A stretch of 38,969 bases of DNA from a virus. The position numbers were made by a program, and so were the translations under genes. Every line of letters starts with the position of its first letter. The stretch's first letter is position 1. Below the pieces are notes generated by a model. That model was not told where the DNA came from. It saw only the letters and a program-made list of their open reading frames with translations, and did not search any database. The stretch is from IMG/VR virus record IMGVR_UViG_3300021440_000010, positions 1 through 38,969 of that record; one strand, given 5' to 3'. Of the stretch, positions 2,937 through 14,642 are shown one piece after another.

Positions 2937-4184
2937 TTAAGCTTCGATGTAGATCACCACAGCGTTGCGCGGTTCGTACAGAGAGGCAGCGTATGCCGAG
3001 TCAATACGGACGAGCTTGTTGAGGTTGGTGCCATCGCCGAAGATACGCATCTTCACGCTAGAGCCGCCCACGGTCGACACAGTTTCATCGTCAGAACCAG
3101 GGAGCTGGTCGAACTGATAAGTGTCGTATGCAAGCGCATCCTTAGCACGGACTTCGCAGACAACGTAGGTCTTGGAAGTGCCGAGAGCGTAGGTAGCGGT
3201 GAGGCTGGACGTACCAGTGGCAACCCATGCGTTCGGGTTGTTTGCAGCCTTGCCATCGAGAGTGATGCGGAGCGGGGAGATCGTAGCGGAAGTACCAGCA
3301 CCGTTGGCGGACAGCACAACGATCTGAACCGGAACTTCGGTCTGGATGCCCGACGTATCAACAACCTTCAAGCCAGCCACGTTGAACACAGCGCCCTTGA
3401 ACAAGTTAGTACCAGTGATGGTCGTAACTTCGTCGAAGCCGTCAGTAGCGGCAACTACGTTGTTCGTAAGAGTGATGGTAGCAGTAGCTGCAGAAGCCGG
3501 AGTCGTGATCTGCGGAAGATCCGGAGTTTCAACCCAGCCAGCAGTTGCATACTTACCGATGGCGTTTTCGCCATAGAGCTTCATGAACACACCGTCGTTG
3601 GTGATGAACTTGTTGGAAACGGCCTTGCTGGAGATTTCAGCTTCGACATCCGGATCAAGGAAGCCGACGAGGTCAGAGCTGAGAGCAAGCTTGCGGAGCT
3701 TTGCCGTAGCCTTGCCGAGCACACCGTAGTCAGCGCCGTCGAGAGTAGCTGAAGTCTTCGGAGCGACCACAGCCATGAGGGCCTTGAAGATTTCGTTGTT
3801 GACGATCTTCTTTTCCTGAGAACGTGCGAGAGTCGTAGCCCACGGGCCAGCGATTTCTTGCTGGAAGGATTCTACGTCGCCAAGGCGCTGCCACGGGCCG
3901 AGTTCGGCGCTGACATTGTCGTTGTCGAGGTAGACAGCCGTTTCGATTTCAGTGATGTCGGACGGGTCAGCAACCACGCCGTTTACCACTTTCGGCTTGC
4001 CTGGGATGTAAAGGTTGTAGGACTTACCATACTTCTTGCCAGCAAATTCCGACTGGGACATCTTGGACACAGAAGCCTTGGTGAAAACACGAGCGTCAGC
4101 CACGTTAGCGGCAATCAGCTTGACTTTCTTGTTGTTCGAAAAGGAGTTACTTACGTTAGCTCCAACCTGACCATAAACTGCCAT
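2937..4184 (-). CDS. Major capsid (coat) protein, P22 gp5-like
   Basis: This 415-aa protein has the layout of the P22 coat family (HK97 fold with an inserted domain). It has an N-terminal region with many short motifs, a central part that ends around YATAGWVETPDLPQITT (similar in position to the FDDVLRSPKLPVLT stretch of P22), and then an insertion rich in Thr/Ala with KGAVFNVAGLKVVD, like the P22 GDKISFAGVKFL strand. I chose the ATG at 4184 because GGAGG lies 8 nt upstream; the earlier in-frame ATG at 4211 has no SD. It is a monocistronic unit, with a recurrent element and a structured 180-nt leader in front and a strong terminator behind, consistent with very high late expression. Confidence 0.85.
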   Translation of the reverse strand: MAVYGQVGANVSNSFSNNKKVKLIAANVADARVFTKASVSKMSQSEFAGKKYGKSYNLYIPGKPKVVNGVVADPSDITEIETAVYLDNDNVSAELGPWQRLGDVESFQQEIAGPWATTLARSQEKKIVNNEIFKALMAVVAPKTSATLDGADYGVLGKATAKLRKLALSSDLVGFLDPDVEAEISSKAVSNKFITNDGVFMKLYGENAIGKYATAGWVETPDLPQITTPASAATATITLTNNVVAATDGFDEVTTITGTNLFKGAVFNVAGLKVVDTSGIQTEVPVQIVVLSANGAGTSATISPLRITLDGKAANNPNAWVATGTSSLTATYALGTSKTYVVCEVRAKDALAYDTYQFDQLPGSDDETVSTVGGSSVKMRIFGDGTNLNKLVRIDSAYAASLYEPRNAVVIYIEA

Positions 4185-8189: not shown

Positions 8190-8603
8190 TTACGCCAATC
8201 TTACGACGATTTCGCAAGACGTAGCCGAGAGAGGCCCGTCGATCTTGCTGATGATACGTGCTGCCAGTTCCTTGGATATGGGAGTCACGACCTTGTCTAC
8301 GTAGTCTTCCAAGCCCATGATGTCGTGTACAAGCTCAGTAAGGCTGAACAGTTCCATGGCCCTGAAGGTGCTTGACTCCGTGACGCCTTGGTAGGTACAG
8401 ACAACCTCGTAGTTCTGGCCCTTGGTCTTGTGTGCGAAATCGAGCATTTCCTCGGCAATGGCATAGCGGAGGTCATCTGCGGCGAATGCGTCGCTGTATT
8501 CCTGGTTACGCATTGCCATCATCTTTGCGATGTGCTTGAGAAGGATTGTGGCGTCGTTGCAGTTGTTGACGATGTCGAAAAAGGTATGTATGGTCTTCTG
8601 CAT
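8190..8603 (-). CDS. Hypothetical protein, 137 aa, first leftward gene
   Basis: I do not recognise a family. The protein is helical, with MMAMRNQEYSDAF, an acidic middle and no membrane segment. It begins the leftward block opposite the integrase. AGGAG lies 6 nt before the ATG, and an 8-bp hairpin follows its stop. It precedes the first recurrent late element, so it may be expressed apart from the late units, perhaps early or in the lysogen. A regulator is possible from position, but I see no HTH motif. Confidence 0.7.
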   Translation of the reverse strand: MQKTIHTFFDIVNNCNDATILLKHIAKMMAMRNQEYSDAFAADDLRYAIAEEMLDFAHKTKGQNYEVVCTYQGVTESSTFRAMELFSLTELVHDIMGLEDYVDKVVTPISKELAARIISKIDGPLSATSCEIVVRLA

Positions 8604-8806
8604 AGTTATCTCCTGATGCAGAAGAAATTACTTCAAAATGTACCCGACTTGTACCCAGCCGTCATCTAGGCCGCACCATTGCTATAAATGGTGTTGACTA
8701 TTGTTATAACTAAGAGTTAATTTTTGCCGAAATTTCGCGAATTTCGCCAGTCATACTCCTCCAGAAGTGTTATATTTGTACCCAAACCAGCACCCAAGGA
8801 GTTGAA
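8604..8806. promoter_or_regulatory. Divergent control region between the leftward block and integrase
   Basis: This 203-nt region has no gene. It contains two palindromic sites. ACCATT-gctata-AATGGT (8675-8692) lies 1 nt from a TTGACT (8694-8699) that could be a rightward -35 with a weak TTAATT 17 nt later. CGAAATT-tcgcg-AATTTCG (8728-8746) follows a TTTTTGCCG that recurs twice after the integrase gene. These look like operators for a repressor or excisionase, but none is identified. The integrase SD AAGGAG is at 8796-8801. Confidence 0.55.
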
Positions 8807-9958
8807 ATGCTAAAAATATCGTACACCATCTGGGCAAAGCACGGCCAGAACCTGTACTGCCGTGTCCGTCAAGCGGGGCAGAAGCCTCTGGACATAAACC
8901 TACACACGACAGACATGGCCAAGGCCGAGGCTTTCGCCAAGCTGAGGCGAGCCGAACTTGAGCTGTACAACTCCTACCTACTGGCCGGAGAGGAGGTTCC
9001 GCCAGACGTCGCGGCGAAGTTACTACGAAGGGGCAGCCCCGCAATTGCACAGAAAGGCCCTTCCAAGGCCCTGCAGACGTTGAGGGTATGCTTGGATGGG
9101 TTCGAGCTAGATTTGCGCCGTAGGGGCCAGCGTGAGCGAACCATAGCCACGTACTGCAAGTCGGTCAAGCAGACCGTGCCTCTGGACTTGACCGTGGCGG
9201 ACTTCACCAGGGCCAACGTACGTACATGGCTGGCGAAGCACGACAGGCTCAAGACGGCCACGCGCAAGTCCTACTCGGTCGCTACGAGGGAGTTCTGCAA
9301 GTACTTGATAAACGACCACGGCCTAGACCAGTCCGTACTGAACGACTGGCCCATGGTGAAGGTGCAGCAAGAGGAGAAGGGCTGGTGGAAGCTCCAGGAG
9401 ATGTACCACATCATCGAGGCCATAGAGTGCCGCGACAAGGTCATGGAACAGCAGATGAAGACTTACTGCTGGGTCATGGCGACGTGCGGGTCGCGTCAAG
9501 GCGAGACATACGAGCTTCGGTGGTCGGACTTCCACGACGGGGTTCTGACATTCAGGGCCGAGACCACGAAGTCGAACCATACGAGAAGGGTTCCGCTCGA
9601 CATGCGCGTGGCCAAGATGCTTCTGAGGTTGCCGAGGCACGGCCAGCGCATTTTCGACGCATTGCCGGACTCGCAAGCTGGGCGTTACGCCATACTCGCG
9701 AGGGCGGTAAAGCAGTGCAATGCCCCACACGGCGGCCTACATACGTTCAGACACAGCGCCAGCATGATACTGTACAGCAAGTGCTCGGACATCAAGGCCG
9801 TGTCGCAGATGCTCGGCCACAGTCCGGAGACGGCTCTGAAGTACTACCAGGCCAGCCGCCAGTCGGACGAGCTACGCTCCACCGTCGAGAGCGCGTTCGG
9901 TGACGAGAACATGATCCCTTCGGCCATGGACGAACTGATCAAGGCGGGGCTGATCTAG
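8807..9958 (+). CDS. Tyrosine recombinase (phage integrase)
   Basis: This 383-aa integrase catalyses site-specific insertion and excision. An N-terminal arm-binding-like part (1-90) is followed by a SAM-like core-binding domain (about 90-185) and the catalytic domain. The catalytic set is visible: Arg230 (CGSRQGE), Lys255 (TTKSN), His312-x-x-Arg315 (HTFR), His338 (LGHS) and the nucleophile Tyr346 or Tyr347 (ALKYYQ). AAGGAG lies 5 nt before the ATG. Its G+C content is visibly higher than that of the AT-rich flanks, which fits a gene acquired as a module. No attP core could be identified. Confidence 0.93.
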   Translation: MLKISYTIWAKHGQNLYCRVRQAGQKPLDINLHTTDMAKAEAFAKLRRAELELYNSYLLAGEEVPPDVAAKLLRRGSPAIAQKGPSKALQTLRVCLDGFELDLRRRGQRERTIATYCKSVKQTVPLDLTVADFTRANVRTWLAKHDRLKTATRKSYSVATREFCKYLINDHGLDQSVLNDWPMVKVQQEEKGWWKLQEMYHIIEAIECRDKVMEQQMKTYCWVMATCGSRQGETYELRWSDFHDGVLTFRAETTKSNHTRRVPLDMRVAKMLLRLPRHGQRIFDALPDSQAGRYAILARAVKQCNAPHGGLHTFRHSASMILYSKCSDIKAVSQMLGHSPETALKYYQASRQSDELRSTVESAFGDENMIPSAMDELIKAGLI

Positions 9959-10300
9959 GTTATTCTGTTACTTTGTCTGGTTTTTGCCGCAGTTTTGCAT
10001 TTTAGCGCCAGAAAAAAAGGAGTAGCAACTACTGCTGCTCCAATAAATAAAGGTATATATATAATATTTCTCTTTTGGTACTTTTCTCTTTGCTTTTTTG
10101 TTAGTTTGTATGGTTTTTGCCGCAAAACTGCAAAAACATGCCCTACCTAAAATGAGTAGCAGTAGTTACTACTGCCCCAATAAATAAAGTATTATATATA
10201 TTTTCTCTTTGGTACTTTCTCTTTTGTTGTACCATACACTCACATACAAACTAAACAGGACTAGCGGTGCCAGTCCGATTTTTGATGGGTGTATGGTAGC
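9959..10300. repeat. AT-rich tandem half-units with palindromic sites (candidate origin/operator region)
   Basis: Two imperfect copies lie about 137 bp apart. Each has GGTTTTTGCCGC (9979-9990 and 10112-10123), a palindromic AGTAG/CTACT site (10020-10040 and 10154-10175), CCAATAAATAAAG (from 10040 and from 10177), an alternating TATATA tract, and TTTCTCTTT-GGTAC-TTTCTCTTT. The second palindrome, 10159-10175, is perfect (8-bp arms around a central T). Downstream, TACCATACAC (10230-10239) and GTGTATGGTA (10289-10298) form a perfect 10-bp inverted repeat around a GGACT/AGTCC hairpin. No gene is present. Iteron-like repeats beside AT-rich DNA and replication genes suggest an origin or an immunity-type control region. 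Confidence 0.6.
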
Positions 10301-10329
10301 TTGCAATTCAAATTTGGTGTTTTTATATT
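10301..10329 (+). promoter_or_regulatory. Sigma70-type promoter for the leader RNA
   Basis: TTGCAA (10301-10306), a 17-nt spacer and TATATT (10324-10329) match the host housekeeping consensus well. A start near 10336 would transcribe the structured region ending at the terminator at 10559-10611 and, with readthrough, the replication genes. Confidence 0.6.
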
Positions 10330-10335
10330 AAGGCC

Positions 10336-10611
10336 ATCATCGAGGACGGCCCGTGCCGTGATTGGACGGTCGGAGTCGCCATGGAGACCTTAGTTCCGCT
10401 TTAGAGAAGAGTAAAGTAATTTACCGAACACAGAGATGGTGCGATCTGGCGCACGCTTCGGAAAAAGTATGCTGCCACCATTTCTACCAAGACTTTCAAA
10501 TATCGCAAATACAGGTTGTGATCGACAATAGTCCGCAATGTAGGATTTTCCGAAGCATGCGGTGTCGGGTTGGGACCTGTATTCCCAAGAAAACCCGGCA
10601 CCGCTTTTTTT
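10336..10611 (+). ncRNA. Candidate structured leader RNA / small RNA ending at an intrinsic terminator
   Basis: About 275 nt without a credible gene lie between a sigma70-type promoter and a very strong terminator. An 11-bp perfect stem GCTTCGGAAAA (10455-10465) / TTTTCCGAAGC (10546-10556) closes an 80-nt domain. Smaller helices such as GTGCG/CGCAC (10440-10455) and CGGC/GCCG (10347-10358) are visible. The arrangement could be a free phage small RNA or an attenuation leader for the replication operon, whose first SD lies immediately after the T tract. It matches no RNA family I can name. Confidence 0.5.
10559..10611 (+). terminator. Strong intrinsic terminator before the replication operon
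   Basis: The stem GCGGTGTCGGGTT (10559-10571) / AACCCGGCACCGC (10592-10604) is 13 bp with one U-G pair. It is followed directly by TTTTTTT (10605-10611). It ends 17 nt before the ATG of the first replication-operon gene, so full expression downstream needs readthrough, antitermination or an unseen promoter. Confidence 0.9.
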
Positions 10612-10627
10612 GTGCCAAAGGAATGCC

Positions 10628-10963
10628 ATGACCAAGTATGAAATGTTCAAGCCCTACCGTGAGCTCTTGCTGAAGGAGTTCAACAACGTCCTCGCCGCAG
10701 CATACAATGCCGAGGAGGAAGTCCTCAACGCCAACCAGTACTGGAAATCCAGCGACACGCTGAACCGTCTGCTGATCTCCATCCGCAGAAGCAAGCAGAG
10801 ACTCGACCGCAAGTACGCCGAGATAAGCGAGGAAATCAGGAAGGCCGAGGCCAATGAGCCAAAGGCCGCCGAAGTCGACACGGCGCAGATGGACAGGTTC
10901 GAAAGGCGAGAGGAACTGATGAACCCAGACCCCTTCGATAAGGGCAACTGGAACAAGATTTAA
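10628..10963 (+). CDS. Small coiled-coil protein, first gene of the replication operon
   Basis: This 111-aa charged protein is almost wholly alpha-helical (residues 10-85 rich in Glu, Lys, Arg, Leu), and ends in an acidic, Pro/Asp-containing tail. I do not recognise a family. I chose the ATG at 10628 because AAAGGAA lies just upstream and the preceding in-frame codons overlap the terminator. It precedes the helicase gene by 22 nt, so a helicase loader or replication accessory role is possible from context only. Confidence 0.75.
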   Translation: MTKYEMFKPYRELLLKEFNNVLAAAYNAEEEVLNANQYWKSSDTLNRLLISIRRSKQRLDRKYAEISEEIRKAEANEPKAAEVDTAQMDRFERREELMNPDPFDKGNWNKI

Positions 10964-10985: not shown

Positions 10986-12431
10986 ATGGAAAACTTCGTA
11001 CGTTTTTTCACCAAGAACTACAGCATCAACCAGAAAGGCGAGGTCGTCAAGTCCAACGGCCACCGCGTTTCGATCCACGACGTATTCAAGGCTTACCGCG
11101 ATGCCCAGGAGAACGCTGGCAACGAGGTGAATCTCAAGGAAGGCGATGTCGCCCAGTACGTCTCGGACAACACGCCAGCCACGCCGCCGAAGCCAGTCTT
11201 CGACCTCCGCAGCTTCATCGAGAGCTACATCACCGAGTTCGCCAGCGACAAGAAGCCAGCCCAGCAGAAGTGGAAGATCGGCCCAGCATGGCGCACCATC
11301 GAGCGCATCACCAACGGAATCCCAACGCCTTCCGACCTCAGCGAGCTTCAGAACGCTGTACGCGCATACGCCATCGACCAGAGCCTCGGAAAGCAAGCCA
11401 AGATGGACGATATCCGCTGCATCCTCACCGACATGGCCGTGAACGCCAACGGAAAGCGCGTGGTCGCCATCGTGGAGAAGATCAAGCACGACCCGGAATC
11501 CCTCGGCATCGCCAAGGAAACGCTGAAGAAGCTCCACGACTTCTGGAAGATCAGCCAGAGCTTCGACGTGTTCTTCACCCTCGTCATGCACTGGATGTGG
11601 CAAGTCAAGCGCAAGCTCCTCGGTCGCGAGACCATCTGGGCGCTGTGGATCAACTTCTTCGGTGGCACGGCAATCGGCAAGACCAGCTTCCTCAACGCTC
11701 TCTCCGAGCCGTTCGATGACTTCGCGCTGTCCACGTCCATCAGCAAGCTCCTCGACGAGGAACGCCAGATGCTGAAGCTCACGGCTTCCTACATTATCAA
11801 CCTCGACGAACTCTCCGTCAACAACCGCGAATCGCTCTATTCCGACAAGGAAGGGCAGCTTGGCCGTGACCAGCAAGCGACATTGAAGTCCTTGCTCACT
11901 CAGGTCAAGATGCAGACCCGCGTCATGGGCGGACAGCGCCAGACCACTCGTAGGCTCACATTCTCTTGCTGCTCCTCGGCAAACGAACACCTCTACGACA
12001 TCATCTACGACGAGAAGACCATGCGCCGCTACTTCGAGTTCGACTGCGGCGTGGACAAGGTCGAGGACTTCTCCGCCATGGACGAGATCAAGACCCACAT
12101 TCTCGACCTCTGGAAGGCCGTGGACGAAAGCCTCGAAGAAGGCTACTGGAACCCGAAGTGCCCGGTGTGGGAGGAAATAGCCTCCGAACAGGCCACGTAC
12201 TATCCGACCAACACGACTACTGGCATGTGGATCGAGGACGCCCACGTCGTAGCTGGTACGAGGGAAGACCATGAGGACATGCAGGGCCTTTACGACGAGT
12301 ACAAGGACTACTGCAAGGAACGCGGACACATGAACAAGTCCTACAAGAAGTGGTCTGTCGACATCGAGCACCTTATCCGTGGTTCCAAGCAAGCCAACCA
12401 CATCTACATCAAGATCATGCCGGAGGCGTAA
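10986..12431 (+). CDS. VirE/VapE-like SF3 replicative helicase
   Basis: This is a 481-aa P-loop ATPase. Walker A GGTAIGKTS covers residues 226-234 and Walker B IINLDE ends at residue 275. A polar sensor stretch FSCCSSANEHLYD and the arginines in MRRYFEF follow, as in VirE (PF05272-type) and related superfamily 3 helicases that unwind phage and plasmid origins. The N-terminal 200 residues carry no recognisable primase (no Toprim or AEP motif), unlike many longer primase-helicase fusions, so the primer source is unclear. GGAG lies 10 nt before the ATG. Its stop overlaps the polymerase ATG (TAATG). Confidence 0.8.
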   Translation: MENFVRFFTKNYSINQKGEVVKSNGHRVSIHDVFKAYRDAQENAGNEVNLKEGDVAQYVSDNTPATPPKPVFDLRSFIESYITEFASDKKPAQQKWKIGPAWRTIERITNGIPTPSDLSELQNAVRAYAIDQSLGKQAKMDDIRCILTDMAVNANGKRVVAIVEKIKHDPESLGIAKETLKKLHDFWKISQSFDVFFTLVMHWMWQVKRKLLGRETIWALWINFFGGTAIGKTSFLNALSEPFDDFALSTSISKLLDEERQMLKLTASYIINLDELSVNNRESLYSDKEGQLGRDQQATLKSLLTQVKMQTRVMGGQRQTTRRLTFSCCSSANEHLYDIIYDEKTMRRYFEFDCGVDKVEDFSAMDEIKTHILDLWKAVDESLEEGYWNPKCPVWEEIASEQATYYPTNTTTGMWIEDAHVVAGTREDHEDMQGLYDEYKDYCKERGHMNKSYKKWSVDIEHLIRGSKQANHIYIKIMPEA

Positions 12432-14570: not shown

Positions 14571-14642
14571 GGACGATTCGGACACTTTAATCTAATTTAC
14601 TAACCGTTAACAGAAATGCCAATAAAACTAAAGAGGTTAATC

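Follow-up and report, generated by a model that had tools for sequence, protein, structure and literature searches.

Which element separates the integrase gene from the replication genes of an uncultured temperate phage, and how might it act on the genes that follow it? The window, by which we mean the whole stretch of DNA analysed, is a 38,969-base virus record (positions 1 to 38,969), and its source is such a phage. The tyrosine integrase gene (8807-9958, plus strand) is followed by a 669-nt intergenic region and then by a rightward replication module, which holds a VapE-like primase/helicase gene at 10986, the gene for DNA polymerase A (PolA) at 12350 and an SSB-like gene at 14616. The head and packaging genes run leftward. 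A preliminary description of this DNA, made from its letters, had placed an unidentified small RNA or premature-termination switch before what it called the first replication gene. The gene that stands there is a 111-aa ORF without a family, and the VapE-like primase/helicase and PolA come next.

The element in nine related phages

No DNA similarity to the window was found among 50,697 phage records, and single-protein searches with its primase and polymerase found no relatives either. Matches obtained with a polymerase alignment were dismissed as relatives, being distant phages that have no other gene in common with the window. Searches with the terminase and the portal protein led to close relatives among IMG/VR contigs, and a search with the integrase added two further contigs and a 36-kb contig from a yak-omasum MAG (L216, JAGCFN010000090.1), which carries integrase, leader and polymerase relatives. 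The element between the integrase and replication genes is present in nine phages, namely the window and eight relatives (seven IMG/VR contigs and the MAG contig). The seven IMG/VR relatives apparently come from rumen samples, judged by their sample numbers, the source being stated for the MAG alone. The MAG that holds L216 is labelled Bacteroidaceae. Shine-Dalgarno-like sites precede 19 of the 29 window genes, and because most of the genes have such a site, this label is doubtful as an indication of the host.

In all nine phages the leader lies directly 5' of the first gene of the replication module. That gene varies among the relatives while the leader itself stays. The window primase is only 37% identical to those of G003, G005 and G006, and no homologue of it was detected in G001 or G002; the leader RNAs of the window and G005 are 73% identical at the DNA level over 220 nt. 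The leaders fall into two types, type A (the window, G003, G005, G006, L206 and L216) and type B (G001, G002 and L208). Between the integrase and the leader of the window (9954-10224) lies an AT-rich, diverged tandem duplication with a spacing of about 135 nt and with inverted repeats. Other repeats occupy this position in G001 (TGAAGTCA) and G002 (TGAAGACA). By their sequence and place, these repeats are candidate origin or integrase arm sites.

The preliminary description had recognised no known RNA family and no credible gene in this region, and both statements agree with what we found. A search of the whole window against Rfam 15 gave nothing at the gathering threshold, the region 9900-10700 gave nothing credible at E<=10, where the weak matches look like chance, and the element had no Rfam match in the relatives. 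The longest open stretches over the RNA change frame and strand from one relative to another. In the open-access literature we found no description of this leader RNA, only functional analogues. We class the leader as a new RNA family that belongs to a known kind, the structured regulatory leaders.

Fold of the leader RNA

Comparison of the nine sequences strongly supports a structured RNA 5' of the replication operon. The predicted features in the window are collected in Table 1.

Table 1. Features of the replication leader in the window
Feature	Position	Strand	Description and basis
P1, sigma70-type promoter	10301..10329	+	TTGCAATTCAAATT...TATATT, 17-nt spacer; sequence, conservation
P2, promoter-like element	10393..10422	+	GTTCCG-N18-TAATTT; fixed spacing, 11 instances
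Helix Pa, 5' strand	10432..10441	+	AGAGAUGGUG; partner 10476-10485
Helix Pa, 3' strand	10476..10485	+	CACCAUUUCU; partner 10432-10441
Pseudoknot helix Pk, 5' strand	10455..10465	+	GCUUCGGAAAA; inside Pa loop
Pseudoknot helix Pk, 3' strand	10546..10556	+	UUUUCCGAAGC; overlaps candidate anti-Shine-Dalgarno stretch
Hairpin Pb	10503..10521	+	UCGCA/UGUGA, kissing loop; comparison of relatives
Kissing strand K5	10508..10516	+	AAUACAGGU; 9 perfect pairs with 10575-10583
Terminal hairpin T	10559..10604	+	13 bp, inner 3-bp stem; folding, alignment
Kissing strand K3, loop of T	10575..10583	+	ACCUGUAUU; complementary to K5
T-run, intrinsic terminator tail	10605..10611	+	Sequence; not kept in all relatives
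Repeat D	10612..10616	+	GUGCC; complementary to 3' strand of T
Shine-Dalgarno site	10617..10622	+	AAAGGA; sequence
First ORF, replication operon	10628..10963	+	111 aa, no family

All nine leader RNAs fold better than chance, with z values from -2.9 to -6.0; for a 278-nt stretch of the window, the plus strand gave z = -3.1 and the minus strand z = -1.5. In the alignment A11 of six sequences, 98% of the cells in the four helices are paired, as compared with 35-53% in slid controls, and the covariation score is 0.42 as compared with 0.18 after shuffling (0 of 500 shuffles).

The two stems already pointed out in the window were both recovered. The 11-bp stem is Pk, whose strands form 11 perfect pairs around 80 nt. 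The terminator stem is the outer part of T, in which 10559-10571 and 10592-10604 form 13 pairs including one U.G, ahead of the seven Ts; a simple terminator scan did not list this hairpin, probably because its loop exceeds the limit of the scan. Pk begins within the loop of Pa and ends beyond it, and therefore Pa and Pk together form a pseudoknot. Pa covaries in type A (GCGGGUG/CACCCGC, GUAGGU/ACCUAC). When partner strands were swapped among six sequences, which are partly identical, Pa and Pk each gave p=0.005, which is about the smallest value that six such sequences allow.

In each of the nine phages, a stretch of 7-9 nt in the loop of Pb is perfectly complementary to one in the loop of T. 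Seven different strand pairs occur: AAUACAGGU/ACCUGUAUU, GAACCAG/CUGGUUC, GAUAGAG/CUCUAUC, GGACAAG/CUUGUCC, CCCUUAAU/AUUAAGGG, CCCUUUCU/AGAAAGGG and CCGUGAC/GUCACGG. A swap/permutation test over the nine phages gave p=2e-5, and within A11 six of the seven kissing pairs show compensatory changes of both partners, the pairing being broken in none.

A covariance model of Pb and T from type A scored its own members at 102-113 bits and elsewhere found only noise. Run on type B, it did not detect the members of that type; the two types are united by position, promoters and architecture, not by a sequence score. In 393 genomes of the order to which the yak MAG belongs, model R1 matched that MAG only. 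Two further helices were considered and set aside. A helix Pc flanking Pb was not above the swapped control (p=0.2), and a long-range pairing between the GTTCCG stretch and the sequence 3' of Pb is good in G005, G006 and type B and poor in the window and G003, and is not claimed for the window.

Promoters and the ribosome site

The promoter P1 is present as it had been described, with TTGCAA at 10301-10306 and TATATT at 10324-10329 separated by 17 nt. Its 14-mer TTGCAATTCAAATT is identical in eight of the nine phages and is followed in most by a -10-like hexamer. The same 14-mer precedes similar genes in unrelated contigs (L193, L194, L196-L199, L201 and L203-L205), which range from 9.6 to 355 kb and many of which are large; in L193, the one contig tested, the gene after it encodes a gp32-like SSB (PF08804). 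P1 is supported as a promoter because TTGCAATTCAAATT stands before genes in unrelated contigs too, and this distribution may be a sign of a common host group.

The two boxes of the second element, GTTCCG-N18-TAATTT, lie exactly 18 nt apart in each of 11 distinct instances; one instance reads TAATGT, and the intervening sequence is variable. The instances are found in the replication leaders and at other sites in the relatives, namely in G002, ahead of the left operon of G001 and, in G003, both ahead of the left operon and just past the terminase gene; the window holds one exact copy. Other spacings are isolated cases, except for a 19-nt GTACCG variant in L206 and L216. A fixed spacing with a free spacer is the pattern of a promoter, and the element is therefore read as a putative second promoter, P2, inside the leader, with a start site expected at about 10429. 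A small conserved hairpin between the two boxes was rejected, the constant feature being the 18-nt spacing.

The ATG of the first ORF lies 16 nt past the last T of the T-run, and the interval contains repeat D, which copies part of T's 5' strand and stands directly before the Shine-Dalgarno site. D is complementary to the 3' strand of its own T hairpin in eight of the nine phages (swap p=0.003), and its variants (GUGCC, GGUGUC, GGUGC, and GUGCGCC or UGCGCC) are each matched to their own hairpin. The stretch just 5' of T is complementary to the Shine-Dalgarno region over 6-10 bp in six of the nine phages (G001, G002, G003, L206, L208 and L216), for which the swap test gave p=1.6e-4. This masking is weak in the window, with 4 bp only (TTCC/GGAA), and no such complementarity was found in G005 and G006. 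In several type A RNAs, nearest-neighbour folding exposes part of the Shine-Dalgarno site.

G005 alone lacks D, and it nevertheless keeps the leader RNA. Its primase ribosome site directly follows T and resembles the primase site of G006, which lies 3' of the small ORF; this arrangement suggests that G005 lost D, the Shine-Dalgarno site and the small ORF by deletion. The tail of the terminator varies as well. The 8 nt after T contain eight Ts in G006, seven in the window and four in G002 and L208. A hairpin with a T-run is present in the window, G003 and G006. In G002, L208 and L216 the T-run is lost or weak, and there the hairpin and the loop-loop contact are kept.

Proposed function and comparison with known leaders

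The most economical reading sets the pseudoknot/kissing fold in competition with a masked state of the ribosome site, termination being an extra layer in the phages that have a T-run. We consider it somewhat probable that the leader RNA gates the replication operon, chiefly by masking the ribosome site and in addition by termination where the Ts remain. Transcription would start at P1, at about 10336, and possibly also at P2, right before Pa. The RNA would fold into Pa, the pseudoknot Pk, hairpin Pb and terminal hairpin T, with the Pb-T kiss tying the fold together, and this fold would decide whether the replication genes get made. With the RNA folded in this way, the pseudoknot would (in type A) sequester the stretch 5' of T, and the kiss would hold T. 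In the other state, that same stretch would bind the Shine-Dalgarno site while D would pair with T's 3' strand, so that the ribosome site would be masked. Where a T-run follows T, the hairpin could also end transcription early. We infer that there are two such states, which of them is ON, and that some factor shifts the balance.

A free small RNA of the phage would account for part of these observations. Such an RNA would start at P1 or P2, end at the terminator (about 185-275 nt) and target proteins or other RNAs in trans, while leaky read-through would serve the replication genes. The conserved strong promoter, the compact fold and the good terminators of the window, G003 and G006 are in line with it, as is the retention of the RNA where the first genes are unrelated and also in G005, which has no D, and a discrete RNA would arise wherever T terminates. 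However, the T-run is weak or missing in three of the phages, the complementarities to the Shine-Dalgarno site and of D would serve no purpose, and the element always lies directly 5' of the first replication gene; we regard a trans-acting RNA as rather unlikely. A transcription attenuator only, in which T terminates and an alternative upstream pairing prevents termination, accords with the 13-bp stem and seven Ts of the window and the eight Ts of G006. But no helix that would compete for T's 5' strand and recurs across the relatives was evident among those listed, and the loop-loop contact would stabilise T rather than oppose it. Pure attenuation is unlikely as the common function because the T-run is not conserved, and overall we judge it improbable. 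The switch first proposed for this DNA is borne out as a structured RNA, by covariation in the relatives, but termination is not its shared function.

Slightly less probable again is a DNA-level or replication-origin element, where the region would be part of the origin and its transcript a primer, or its repeats protein-binding sites. The left half of the same intergenic region is AT-rich and full of repeats, and D, as a partial copy of T's 5' strand, might serve as an operator in the DNA, yet the compensations in the loop-loop contact and the pseudoknot join distant segments and are features of RNA.

The proposed gating of the operon has functional analogues. To our knowledge, the repZ system of ColIb-P9 does not include an intramolecular kissing loop to a terminal hairpin, and conserved structured pseudoknot leaders have rarely been described in DNA phages. 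In ColIb-P9 (IncI-alpha), a long-range pseudoknot in the repZ leader is reported to govern translation of a replication gene (Asano & Mizobuchi 1998, cited in PMC10724649). The two are alike as replication-gene leaders with a long-range pseudoknot, whereas repZ is set by an antisense RNA and the phage leader is without a conserved antisense promoter. A consensus scan of the relatives found no conserved sigma70-like promoter on the minus strand over the leader, and control of the repZ type was rejected on this ground. In T4, the gene 32 leader has a pseudoknot upstream of the ribosome site of a phage replication gene (PMC3014915). That pseudoknot is small, single and bound by gp32, whereas the fold here is much larger, with a loop-loop contact and a terminal hairpin. 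ROOL and GOLLD are ornate bacterial or phage-associated RNAs, ROOL being named for the rumen (PMC12286853); the present RNA, in contrast, has no Rfam match, is far smaller and sits in an operon leader.

In T4 genes e, soc, 49 and I-TevI, the Shine-Dalgarno site or AUG is masked in long transcripts, and promoters beside the masking arm of gene e yield unmasked short transcripts (PMC3014915). In this phage family, the leaders of the left operons resemble this arrangement. Of the eight that were folded, most mask the Shine-Dalgarno site or AUG similarly, with the 5' arm close to TAATTT. The replication leader is unlike gene e in that its masking stretch lies downstream of P2, and transcripts from both promoters would carry it. 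The leader of the leftward structural operon in the window (8594-8654, minus strand) has GAAGTAATTTC and then a perfect 10-bp hairpin (8625-8616/8603-8594), with the Shine-Dalgarno site in the loop and the start codon opening the 3' arm. The left leader in L188 (relative G003; 3840-4115, plus strand) consists of GTTCCG-N18-TAATGT, a circularly permuted tRNA-like domain, a large hairpin and a Shine-Dalgarno site. The tRNA-like domain matches Rfam YrlA at 36 bits, under the gathering score of 69; the idea of a Y RNA was rejected, as no TROVE/Ro protein was found in eight records including that of G003.

A wider proposal, which we advance tentatively, is that the leader represents a new class of switch RNAs, pseudoknotted and loop-locked. 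It would respond to a signal, whether a small molecule, a host factor or a replication protein, and time the start of DNA replication in a temperate rumen phage. The scheme would extend to the whole family, with masked ribosome sites beside a special GTTCCG-N18-TAATTT promoter in each of the two divergent operons. A 2010 review described the gene 32 pseudoknot of T4-type phages as perhaps the sole viral example in translational autoregulation (PMC3014915). The leader described here would be an unrelated and larger pseudoknot case, placed between the integrase and replication genes of a temperate phage. Its fold, backed by covariation, is open to simple paired-mutation tests, and its alignment and model provide a new RNA family for rumen phages.
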